A stretch of DNA of 5,177 bases, taken from Calditrichia bacterium. Lineage in GTDB: Bacteria; Calditrichota; Calditrichia; RBG-13-44-9. The stretch spans positions 1-5,177 of the forward strand of contig JALXCH010000375.1 in NCBI GenBank assembly GCA_026991005.1, read 5' to 3'. Below the pieces are notes generated by a model, which worked only from the letters and a program-made list of their open reading frames with translations, had not been told where the DNA came from and made no database searches. The stretch's first letter is position 1. The number at the start of each line of letters is the position of its first letter. Positions 2,378 through 5,177 of this stretch are shown here, piece after piece. The position numbers were made by a program, and so were the translations under genes.

Positions 2378-2459
2378 GCCCCTTTGGGGCTCAAATTTCG
2401 CGTGTGCTCTATTCCCAGGGCTTCGCCCTGGGCTCTTCATGTGTGAGTGCTTCGCACTC
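2378..2459. repeat. Row of three short hairpins (part of a five-hairpin array)
   Basis: Three perfect palindromes follow each other: GCCCC/GGGGC with loop TTT (2378-2390), CCCAGGGC/GCCCTGGG with loop TTC (2414-2432) and GAGTGC/GCACTC with loop TTC (2445-2459). Stem sequences differ while loop size is constant at 3 nt. A fourth (interrupted by the mobile element) starts at 2476 and a fifth is at 3437. They resemble REP-like intergenic palindromes, but no REP transposase is in the window. None has a T-tract that would make it a standard terminator. Confidence 0.75.
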
Positions 2460-2475
2460 CTGAGGAATTCCCATT

Positions 2476-2488
2476 CCCATGGCTGAAG
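2476..2488. repeat. Left half of hairpin target and target-site duplication of outer element
   Basis: CCCATGGC (2476-2483) is the left hairpin arm and TGAAG (2484-2488) the left copy of the 5-bp duplication. The partners are TGAAG at 3412-3416 and GCCATGGG at 3417-3424. Removing the element and one TGAAG restores a perfect 8-bp stem whose 5-nt loop is TGAAG. Confidence 0.88.
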
Positions 2489-2749
2489 GAGGCTGTGTAA
2501 AAATAAAACTCAAAAGAATATTTAATCATAATTGCGCATATTGTAGCTCATGATGTTTATTTAAAACTGGACCAATAAAGAGTATGTTGTTCAATCTTTA
2601 CTTATTACTGAATTTAGTTTTCCTTTATAGTCATAAGATCCAAATATTAAGATAACAGTAAAGGAATACTTCTTTTCGATGGTATTTCCTGGTCTATAAA
2701 ATACGAGGTAATTCTTTAAATCATCATGATTTACAGTGTTTTTTTATAG

Positions 2750-2825
2750 CCACGAGCTTCTGCGCAGCATCCTGCCCGATGTCCGAAGGATCCCGTGGAC
2801 GGGCTCTGTGAGTGGAAGCTCGTGG
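2750..2825. repeat. Large hairpin in outer element with GC-rich 56-nt loop
   Basis: CCACGAGCTT (2750-2759) and AAGCTCGTGG (2816-2825) are perfect 10-bp arms. The inner element has the same hairpin at 3181-3200 but closed, with only TG between 9-bp arms. The 56-nt loop (2760-2815) is much more GC-rich than its surroundings and is itself partly palindromic (CCCGT/ACGGG at 2792-2803). It looks like a further small insertion into a hairpin loop, though no target duplication is evident. Confidence 0.7.
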
Positions 2826-2849
2826 AACACTGAATTTTCCTTTCTAAAA

Positions 2850-2886
2850 TTAGGCTTTAGCCTAAAATTGGGCTAAAGCCCAATTT
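2850..2886. repeat. Two adjacent palindromes in outer element
   Basis: TTAGGCT/AGCCTAA around TT (2850-2865) is followed at once by a 10-bp-arm hairpin with core GGGCT/AGCCC around AA (2865-2886). The second hairpin is repeated, identical in all 22 bases, in the inner element at 3239-3260. The first is present there only in degenerate form. Identity of this hairpin between copies contrasts with the strong divergence of the left arms. Confidence 0.8.
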
Positions 2887-2905
2887 ATAGTGTTTTTCTT
2901 AATTT

Positions 2906-2918
2906 CCCCGAGCTAAAA
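2906..2918. repeat. Left half of hairpin target and target-site duplication of inner element
   Basis: CCCCGAGC (2906-2913) is the left arm and TAAAA (2914-2918) the left copy of the 5-bp duplication. The partners are TAAAA at 3335-3339 and GCTCGGGG at 3340-3347. Removing the inner element rebuilds an 8-bp stem with loop TAAAA, belonging to the outer element. Confidence 0.88.
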
Positions 2919-3180
2919 GAGGCTGTGTAAAAATGAAAACCAGAAGAATAATTAATCAAAAACATGCATATTGCAATTTACCATATTTATGTAAAACTGT
3001 GGCAGTAAAGGACACAGAATTATTTTTATTTCTTTCTGAATTTAGTGTTTTTCTACGGACTCTATGACTCCATCATTAAGTCAACAACACAAGAATATTT
3101 TGTATCTGTTCATTTTCATAAATCCTTAAATTCAAGGCATATCTTTTAAAAATATCAATTTGCACTGATTTTTATTATAG

Positions 3181-3200
3181 CCACGAGCTTGAGCTCGTGG
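3181..3200. repeat. Hairpin in inner element
   Basis: CCACGAGCT and AGCTCGTGG are perfect 9-bp arms around TG. It corresponds to the hairpin at 2750-2825 of the outer element without the 56-nt insert. Confidence 0.8.
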
Positions 3201-3238
3201 ATCTCAGAATCCACCTCAAAAAATAAGGCTTTAGCTTT

Positions 3239-3260
3239 AAATTGGGCTAAAGCCCAATTT
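3239..3260. repeat. GGGCTAAAGCCC hairpin in inner element
   Basis: Ten-bp arms surround the 2-nt loop AA. The 22-bp palindrome is identical to 2865-2886 in the outer element, while flanking sequence differs. Confidence 0.8.
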
Positions 3261-3411
3261 GTAGTATGGTCCTTTAGTTCCCTTGAATAACAATGAATAA
3301 ATATTCTATTGATACTGCATTTTCACACAGCCTCTAAAAGCTCGGGGCTATGTTTTACTTTGAATGACAATGAATAAATATTCTGTTGACACAGGTTTTT
3401 TACACAGCCTC

Positions 3412-3451
3412 TGAAGGCCATGGGCTAACATCTTTCGGCCACTCCGTGGCC
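3412..3451. repeat. Right half of outer target hairpin, then fifth array hairpin
   Basis: TGAAG (3412-3416) and GCCATGGG (3417-3424) complete the hairpin split by the outer element. Twelve nucleotides later GGCCAC/GTGGCC closes around TCC (3437-3451), matching the 3-nt-loop style of the hairpins at 2378-2459. This places the element inside the hairpin row. Confidence 0.8.
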
Positions 3452-3542: not shown

Positions 3543-3638
3543 AAACAAATTCCAATTAACAAATCCCAAATCACAAACAAACTCCAAATTCCAAATCTCA
3601 ATTAACAAAAAACAAATTCCAAATATCAACCTCAAATA
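3543..3638. repeat. AAATTCCAAA low-complexity repeat
   Basis: About 95 bp of G-poor DNA is made of loosely repeated words such as AACAAATTCC, CAAATCCC, TCCAAA and AATTAACAAA with no fixed period. A short similar stretch lies at 2230-2250. I recall this kind of A/C-rich run as a common intergenic repeat in environmental genomes. No coding potential or hairpin is seen in it. Confidence 0.6.
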
Positions 3639-3644
3639 TCGTTA

Positions 3645-3705
3645 TTTTTTATTCGTGTTCATTCGTGCGATTCGTGGTTAAGTGCTTTTTCGTGTGATTC
3701 GTGGG
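3645..3705. repeat. ATTCGTG direct repeat, copy B plus partial third copy
   Basis: Positions 3645-3679 repeat 2321-2355 with two substitutions. A further fragment, CGTGTGATTCGTGG (3691-3704), follows after 11 nt. The copy lies 48 nt past the cheA stop codon when read on the minus strand. Confidence 0.85.
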
Positions 3706-3752: not shown

Positions 3753-5177
3753 TCAATCTTCAAGAACAATGTACTCACCAAGCAATTTCATCAGTTCGTC
3801 TTCTTTAAACGGCTTTACAATAAATTCATCGGCTCCCAGGGTGCGGGTCAATTGCTGAATATGTTTACTGGCACGTCCGGTGAGAACAATAATGGGCATT
3901 TCCTTCCAGCGGTCTTCATCCCGTACCTGCTCGATGAGTTCGTAACCGGAAAGATGGGGCATTTCCAGGTCGGTAATCAGCACATCGAAATCCTGTTGAT
4001 TTAGCTTTTCCAGAGCGTTGTATCCATTTTTCGCCATTTCCACCTGATATCCCCGCTGGGTCAGCAAACTGGCCAGGAATTTGCGGATGCTGAGCGAGTC
4101 GTCCACCACCAGCACCGAGGGTTTGCGTCCTTTCACCACCCGCTGGCGTTTTTTCCGTTTCACACCCGCTTTGGCCGGGACTTCCTCCGGTTTGGTTAAG
4201 TCCTCCGGCGAAAGAACCGCGCCGGTAGCCTGCATCCGTACCGCTTCCTTGATGATTTGCGGAATATCCAGGACCAGCACCACCTTCCCATCTGCCAGCA
4301 CCGAGCCGCCGGTGATAAATTTCACCCGCTGGAGATTGGGTCCCAGGGATTTAATTAAAATCTCCTCCCGGTGCACAATTCGATCCACCAGCAAGGCTAC
4401 CCGATGCCCTTCATCCTGTACCACAATGGCGGGATACTCTCCCACCACCGAAATGGGTTTCCGTTTACCGGCCCGAATCTGAAGCAAATTCGCCAGATTC
4501 AGCACCGGAATGTACCCACCCCGATGCCGCATATAGTAGGAATTATCGCGCAGTTCCAGACTGCGCACTTCGATGTTGATGGTTTCTTCCGCCTGCAATA
4601 AAGGAATGGCGTACACGTGTCCGGCAACCTCCACCAGCATGGCCTGCGTCACCGTTAAAGAAATCGGTACCCGGATGATGAAACGGGTGCCCTTTCCCTC
4701 TTCGGAGAAAATACGCAAATCACCTTTGATCTTCTGGATCTGGCTGCGAACCACATCCAGCCCCACCCCCCTACCGCTAATGGTGGTTGCTTCCTCCCGG
4801 GTGGTAAAACCGGGATACATTAAGAACTCCAGCAGTTCCTGATCCGAGAGTTCATCGGCTTTGTCGGCTTCCAGATACCCCAGTTGAATCGCTTTCTCGC
4901 GCACTTTTTTCAAATCCACTCCCCGCCCATCATCTTCAATCTCGATGGTAACAAAGTTGCGGTCGTGACTGGCGCGCAGGGCAATGGTTCCTTCCTCCGG
5001 TTTCCCGGCCTTCTTGCGTTCTTCTGTGGACTCGATCCCATGATCCACCGCATTGCGGAGAATATGTAACAACGGCTCGTACAAATCCTCAATTAACACC
5101 CGATCCAGTTCGGTGCTTTCCCCTTCCAGCACCAGCTTTAGCCTTTTCCCGGACTTACGCGCCATATCCCGCAGCGG
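3753..5177 (-). CDS. cheA: CheA-type hybrid histidine kinase with C-terminal receiver domain (5' end outside window)
   Basis: The reading frame is open to the window edge, adding PLRD before the first visible Met; that Met is internal, since CheA proteins have this stretch just before the ATPase domain. Numbering from the Met, the HATPase domain shows the N box HILRNAVDHGIE (34-45), DDGRGV (78-83), PGFTTRE (118-124) and GRGVGLDVV (131-139). A CheW-like P5 domain follows (about 165-305). After a Lys/Arg-rich linker (310-348) comes a receiver domain with DD (355-356), phospho-acceptor D399, T429 and K451. CheA autophosphorylates in response to receptor arrays; a fused receiver is typical of chemosensory systems such as FrzE, PilL/ChpA and PixL that steer surface motility, though which output is used here is unknown. 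The Hpt, P2 and dimerisation domains lie beyond the edge. No other che gene is in view and no clear terminator follows. Confidence 0.95.
   Translation of the reverse strand, partial: PLRDMARKSGKRLKLVLEGESTELDRVLIEDLYEPLLHILRNAVDHGIESTEERKKAGKPEEGTIALRASHDRNFVTIEIEDDGRGVDLKKVREKAIQLGYLEADKADELSDQELLEFLMYPGFTTREEATTISGRGVGLDVVRSQIQKIKGDLRIFSEEGKGTRFIIRVPISLTVTQAMLVEVAGHVYAIPLLQAEETINIEVRSLELRDNSYYMRHRGGYIPVLNLANLLQIRAGKRKPISVVGEYPAIVVQDEGHRVALLVDRIVHREEILIKSLGPNLQRVKFITGGSVLADGKVVLVLDIPQIIKEAVRMQATGAVLSPEDLTKPEEVPAKAGVKRKKRQRVVKGRKPSVLVVDDSLSIRKFLASLLTQRGYQVEMAKNGYNALEKLNQQDFDVLITDLEMPHLSGYELIEQVRDEDRWKEMPIIVLTGRASKHIQQLTRTLGADEFIVKPFKEDELMKLLGEYIVLED

Follow-up and report, generated by a model that had tools for sequence, protein, structure and literature searches.

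The window, that is, the whole stretch of 5,177 nucleotides that was analysed, carries a nest of two elements within a repeat-rich intergenic region that extends from ftsY to a CheA-like gene (Table 1). The DNA is of Calditrichota origin and probably a metagenome contig; its FtsY shares 75% identity with proteins named Calditrichia bacterium and 89% with two others. Neither a transposase gene nor a RAYT gene was found in the list of open reading frames of the window. The nest is bracketed by two direct repeats of 44 nt (2312-2355 and 3636-3679, 91% identity), which represent a separate repeat type.

Table 1. Genes, elements and hairpin targets in the window, in order of position
Feature	Position	Strand	Description
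tRNA gene	299-373	minus	Rfam RF00005; downstream of the MerR-like regulator gene
MerR-like regulator gene	463-813	minus	weak CarH match, below cut-off
ftsY	1063-1983	minus	one border of the repeat-rich intergenic region
Empty hairpin	2414-2432		CCCAGGGC-TTC-GCCCTGGG, 3-nt loop; frame TTCCC...GGGCT
Left arm, outer target hairpin	2476-2483	+	CCCATGGC
Outer target duplication, left copy	2484-2488	+	TGAAG
Outer MITE	2489-3411		923 bp including the inner MITE; 502 bp minus the inner MITE and one duplication
Left arm, inner target hairpin	2906-2913	+	CCCCGAGC
Inner target duplication, left copy	2914-2918	+	TAAAA
Inner MITE	2919-3334		416 bp; nested within the outer MITE
REP-like hairpin within inner MITE, unoccupied	3181-3200		CCACGAGC-TTGA-GCTCGTGG
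Inner target duplication, right copy	3335-3339	+	TAAAA
Right arm, inner target hairpin	3340-3347	+	GCTCGGGG
Outer target duplication, right copy	3412-3416	+	TGAAG
Right arm, outer target hairpin	3417-3424	+	GCCATGGG
CheA-like gene with receiver domain	3753-5165	minus	other border of the repeat-rich intergenic region

The same terminal repeat, GAGGCTGTGTRAAAA, forms all four ends of the two elements; with up to two mismatches four occurrences were found against a chance expectation of 0.07, and none of 200 shuffles reached four. The inner element is bounded by GAGGCTGTGTAAAAA and TTTTCACACAGCCTC, and it aligns to the outer one with 72.2% identity over 413 positions. No listed open reading frame of at least 60 aa overlaps 2489-3411, and no IS1182-type DDE transposase was found within the window elements. 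Lacking such a reading frame, neither element can be autonomous, as expected of MITEs, and the nest is, to judge from these features, one MITE family inserted into itself. At 2760-2815, within the outer MITE, the loop of an internal hairpin (CCACGAGCTT...AAGCTCGTGG) is replaced by about 56 nt that are not in the inner MITE, which has the simple hairpin CCACGAGC-TTGA-GCTCGTGG at the equivalent place. A 30-nt block containing the inner target hairpin is present in the outer MITE and absent from its inner sibling, which suggests that this hairpin was an extra of the outer copy, probably already there before the insertion.

The outer target reads CCCATGGC-TGAAG-GCCATGGG and the inner one CCCCGAGC-TAAAA-GCTCGGGG, the central five bases being duplicated in both. 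An initial sequence-only reading had described the inner element as flanked by TAAAA duplications and then by complementary 8-nt arms, and the letters at the positions listed in Table 1 bear this out; at equal base frequencies, a match of 8-nt arms at one fixed place has a probability of 1.5e-5. The same reading had held that stem and loop differ completely between the two targets, and had treated them as unrelated sequences. Comparison of the 21-nt targets contradicts this, since 13 of 21 positions are identical (5 of 8 in each arm and 3 of 5 in the loop) and both targets have the frame TTCCC...GGGCTA in common. The identical geometry proposed for them, 8-bp arms and a 5-nt loop, holds for the letters and not quite for the predicted single-stranded fold: an 8-bp stem with a 5-nt loop is predicted for the outer target, whereas a 9-bp stem with a 3-nt loop is preferred for the inner one, owing to pairing of the outer T and A of TAAAA.

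Autonomous copies were found among the matches listed through paired ends about 1.7 kb apart. The terminal-repeat string GAGGCTGTGTNAAAA bounds three elements, each from a different relative, without mismatch at either end; two measure 1704 bp and the third, L325 from the held-out genomes, 1702 bp. The IS1182 model NF033551, which has a cut-off of 270 bits, gave scores of 352.6 and 351.5 for the transposases of the two 1704-bp elements, and both matched PF13751, PF05598 and PF01609 of Pfam; the third transposase is 78% identical to one of these two. Each of the full-length elements lies on an exact 4-bp duplication, the targets being CCCACGAC-TTAA-GTCGTGGG with 8 of 8 pairs, CTCCGACA-TTTA-ACTCGGGG with 5 of 8 and CCCCTCCA-TGAA-TGGCGGGG with 7 of 8. 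Starting from PF01609 (DDE_Tnp_1), a search of nine genomes led to 18 loci, and at none did the terminal repeat lie on both sides of the transposase within the flanks examined. Terminal repeats are therefore common to the window elements and to autonomous IS1182 elements, the latter from another phylum. As neither a transposase nor a RAYT gene was found in the window, the IS1182 assignment and the REP status of its targets are both transferred from these other-phylum relatives; on that footing, the window elements were probably moved by an IS1182-type transposase.

The survey covered relatives from another phylum than the Calditrichota window, chosen by terminal repeat. Of 198 genomes sampled from the phylum to which an Ignavibacteriales genome belongs, 9 contained GAGGCTGTGTNAAAA; so did at least 43 of 146 genomes from the order of the richest genome, G130 (an order picked because G130 had the most matches, and a draw that overlaps the 198), and 12 of 249 sampled from the phylum that includes a gammaproteobacterial genome. 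A reversed control pattern matched 5 of 198, at least 8 of 146 and 3 of 249 genomes, so that single matches may be due to chance. Following GTDB, we take the first set to be Bacteroidota and the last to be Pseudomonadota. Eighty stretches were taken from the matches listed for the 146-genome draw, and 156 loci in all. Adjacent reciprocal nearest ends with at most three mismatches were paired by a rule blind to hairpins; cases with no reciprocal partner within 1800 bp, more than three mismatches or flanks shorter than 16 nt were excluded before the count, as were duplicates. The resulting survey set comprised 63 paired elements from 24 genomes; 56 of these elements measured 68-333 bp, and two, both with a transposase, 1704 bp. 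A held-out set of 12 elements was obtained by identical rules from six of ten previously unused genomes. Nearest-end pairing made some errors: L213 entered the count with a wrong right end, and in the held-out L267 and L275, which were scored as misses, an IS end seems to have been matched to an inner repeat at a distance of 104 nt. Viral contigs contained no match to a 32-nt pattern derived from the left ends of both window MITEs.

Arms were scored 4 nt outside the element ends, and at least 6 complementary positions out of 8 were counted as a hairpin. At register 0, hairpins flanked 32 of the 63 survey elements, against 0, 0, 0 and 1 at registers -4 to -1 and 3, 1, 0 and 0 at registers +1 to +4 (each of 63); mispaired cross-genome flanks reached six of eight pairs in 7.8% of cases. 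The arrangement seen in the window, a hairpin centred on the duplication, thus recurred in the survey of family insertions that the sequence-only reading had called for, here run on relatives. An exact 4-bp duplication was present in 34 of 63 elements (13.2% in mispaired flanks) and an exact 5-bp duplication in only 2 of 63. Same-strand 4-bp duplications accompanied 21 of the 32 hairpin-flanked elements, the other 11 being without one. Among the 31 elements outside any recognisable hairpin, 13 had an exact 4-bp duplication where about 4 were expected, indicating that some insertions took place at non-hairpin sites or that the sites have decayed. The held-out set gave 5 hairpins at register 0, 0-1 elsewhere and 7 elements with a 4-bp duplication (each of 12), and six further elements of genome G263 were hairpin-flanked in five cases and had a duplication in two. 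Inverted centres, for example TTTA on the left and TAAA on the right, were observed in 3 of the 32 hairpin-flanked and 1 of the 31 other elements; in L192, L193, L184 and L107 the flanks end in reverse-complementary tetranucleotides (TTTA/TAAA, TGAA/TTCA). Such centres look like the outcome of recombination or inversion between MITE copies in different repeats.

Positional analysis of the 75 elements of the survey and held-out sets showed pairing of 0.55-0.63 at arm positions 1-6, against 0.26-0.36 in the mispaired control. At position 7 the values were 0.69 and 0.58, and at position 8 they were 0.64 and 0.64; a C is conserved at both positions (0.75 and 0.79, respectively). Beyond position 8, pairing was 0.24-0.44 against 0.28-0.46 in the control, an excess that is at most slight. 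A typical target thus has a TNNA centre, six pairs of variable sequence and, at the base of the stem, two constant C-G pairs. Loop length was checked in the 43 elements with 4-bp duplications, of which 18 have well-folded targets; three of these have 3-nt loops and three 8-nt loops, figures that establish the existence of such cases and not their frequency, since only elements with 4-bp duplications were taken in. In the 3-nt-loop targets (L207, L213 and L261), the duplication includes one stem base. That targets with 3-nt and 8-nt loops all carry 4-bp duplications argues for a stagger of fixed width, and against a cut set by the loop.

Not every hairpin serves as a target. Among 21 occupied hairpins, all with 7 or 8 of 8 positions paired, 20 have the motif CC-N6-TNNA-N6-GG on one side or both; among free hairpins of intergenic DNA, counted where the arms were perfect over 8 or more and the loops 3-8, it occurs in 29 of 126 (p = 2e-10). 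The 21 occupied hairpins have 18 distinct left arms. REP-like hairpins recur in the genomes of the relatives, and PF01797, a RAYT-like family that presumably also covers IS200-type transposases, is present in 7 of 7 relative genomes, 24 of its 47 matches being examined. At 9 of 24 loci the PF01797 gene was flanked on both sides, within 700 nt, by hairpins of the C...G/TNNA type, and 12 of 24 had such a hairpin on either side or both, with 0 of 17 among controls; a looser hairpin count gave 13 of 24 loci against 3 of 18 control pieces, the control pieces for these counts coming from four genomes only. Flank arms were within one mismatch of an arm of such a hairpin in 10 of 64 comparisons for the same genome and 47 of 986 for other genomes. 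At L330 and L339, a RAYT-like gene and a MITE occupy one cluster of alternating REP-like hairpins, and the RAYT-like gene cluster at L333 has one readable MITE end only. With the seven host genomes pooled, the strict motif pattern (64 matches) was no more frequent than its reversed control (65); only G033 stood out. Excerpts of PMC2817692 define REPs by a GT(A/G)G head. This head was not found: on the minus strand the window targets have TAGCCC...GGGAA, and in relatives CC is often preceded by ATAG or ATTG. By position and shape, the occupied hairpins of the relatives are to all appearances REP-like, though without the GT(A/G)G head, and the window targets are probably of REP nature as well.

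These observations bear on what the transposase recognizes. A transposase dimer could read symmetric bases in duplex DNA, namely CC/GG 7-8 positions out from the stagger and T/A at its edges, in which case hairpins would be seen only because most intergenic motif sites are REP-like repeats; we regard this as close to an even proposition, just on the doubtful side. The conserved target positions of the relatives speak for it, and so do ten IS1182-type elements of Pseudomonadota with the same ends. The latter include three full-length elements, with transposases 31-34% identical to the Bacteroidota ones, and have exact 4-bp duplications, six of which are GGCC. Their sites contain symmetric conserved bases (17 of 20 half-sites have G at distance 6, and 18 of 20 have C at distance 8) and no clear pairing excess, although at n = 10 a modest excess could be missed; L318, a Pseudomonadota element without a duplication, was excluded from this position test. 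IS1182 elements and MITEs with the same ends were noted in Pseudomonadota at L312, L313, L310, L311, L314, L293, L296, L297 and L306. Among free intergenic motif sites, 41 had at least seven pairs, 3 had six and 22 had five or fewer; for occupied sites, taken where both sides carry the motif and the duplication is exact, the numbers were 15, 4 and 3. Occupied sites lean to hairpins, which speaks against duplex reading, but not significantly so (p = 0.16, sixes left out), and because free intergenic motif sites are themselves mostly hairpins, the survey cannot separate shape from sequence. The pairing difference between occupied sites and motif sites inside reading frames is large (p = 1.4e-9) and also counts against duplex reading, though selection can explain it.

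Recognition by shape is possible. In its strict form, in which the transposase would recognize an extruded hairpin or cruciform and cut its loop irrespective of sequence, we consider it unlikely, despite arms that vary (18 distinct left arms among 21) and yet pair far above controls, and despite reports that IS1272, of the same family, chooses stem-loops without a common sequence (excerpts of PMC5678879 and PMC4923244). Occupied hairpins nearly all fit CC-N6-TNNA-N6-GG and most other intergenic hairpins do not, pairing adds nothing significant among motif sites, the Pseudomonadota relatives insert at hairpin-free sites, and 4-bp duplications occur at the three targets with 3-nt loops. Together with the similarity of the two window targets and the CC and T..A motif of the relatives, these results leave the initial claim, that targeting is structure-guided rather than sequence-guided, without support. 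That reading had named a shared motif without consistent hairpin geometry as the contrary finding; the motif is there in the relatives, but so is the hairpin geometry, and the reading is to that extent not refuted. A more specific proposal, which we likewise put forward as doubtful, is that this IS1182 branch reads extruded REP hairpins and attaches its ends at both 5' edges of the loops, so that only the loop is duplicated, while sisters with the same ends read symmetric duplex. If this were true, IS1182 MITEs would live on landing pads spread by RAYT/REP.

Two further explanations carry little weight. Insertions into genes would be selected against, and near-random insertion with survival only in harmless repeat clusters might be invoked on that ground, but survival would not put elements exactly on the dyad axis, where 32 of 63 lie, against 0-3 at each other register; it is very improbable as an account of the data and was rejected for the register, while a contribution to the choice of repeat is possible. 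Even less credible, and likewise rejected, is that the arms belong to the element as a longer terminal repeat: perfect inverted repeats do adjoin the ends of each window copy, but the arms differ between these copies and are mostly distinct among the relatives while the 15-nt ends are nearly constant, and the duplication sits between arm and end.

An IS1182-family transposase whose stagger is fixed and falls centrally on the dyad axis of REP-type hairpins is, in our view, the likely mover of these MITEs. Both window MITEs would be moved by such a DDE transposase from a gene located elsewhere, presumably through a staggered cut whose width is constant, 5 bp in the Calditrichota host, a value resting on two cases that are both in the window, and 4 bp in the surveyed relatives. 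The cut would be centred on the dyad axis of a hairpin whose arms measure about 8 bp and whose loop is 3-5 nt long. What lies between the two cuts would then be the loop or nearly so, and gap repair would duplicate these bases and leave an arm on either side; the loop would be duplicated because it is about as wide as the stagger. The inner copy would be the later one, having landed in a REP-like hairpin within the older outer copy. The loop rule of the initial reading is accordingly best understood as a stagger of constant width that is centred on the dyad axis of REP hairpins.

With the same ends and related transposases in both bacterial sets, hairpin targets in one and symmetric hairpin-free sites in the other, these elements offer a comparative system for asking whether a DDE transposase reads the shape or the sequence of DNA. 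They also link two mobile families, RAYT/REP and IS1182, through a common landing site. Use of REPs as landing sites is likewise described, in the excerpts consulted of PMC1525189 and PMC2817692, for IS1397, ISKpn1, IS621, ISPpu9/10 and ISRm22. ISPsy8 of Pseudomonas syringae also lies on the symmetry axis of a predicted REP hairpin and has a short direct repeat, but it differs in belonging to the IS3 family, in its 3-bp repeat and in using one REP consensus (excerpts of PMC1525189). The REP-targeting families named in those excerpts are IS3, IS110, IS4, IS256 and IS5, and IS1182 is not among them. MITEs of 160 and 169 bp related to ISMac2 of Methanosarcina have also been assigned to an IS1182 element; the table in the excerpt of PMC3852290 lists values of 4 and 0, which we take as direct repeats, and gives no hairpin target.

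A search of paper texts for the string GAGGCTGTGT was uninformative, returning among the matches listed only a zebrafish paper. No description of loop-only duplication for IS1182 was found in the literature searched, which lay outside two main IS reviews and ISfinder, so that the rule may be in print there. A close known system is IS1272/TnSha1, which has a transposase of the same family (IS1182, NF033551) and hairpin targets with varied arms (excerpts of PMC5678879 and PMC4923244); as cited in the same excerpts, a 2015 review had already noted palindromic targets for some IS1182 members. Insertion of IS1272 removes the stem-loop and produces no duplication (excerpts of PMC5678879), whereas in both window copies the arms are kept and the centre is duplicated, with arms and duplications on both sides. 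Stem-loop replacement is equally at variance with 21 of the 32 hairpin-flanked relatives, in which a same-strand duplication is present. Loop-only duplication is, however, drawn as possible pathway c in the excerpted text of PMC5678879, and the window elements have the anatomy of that pathway, providing natural cases of what a published model had listed as a possibility.
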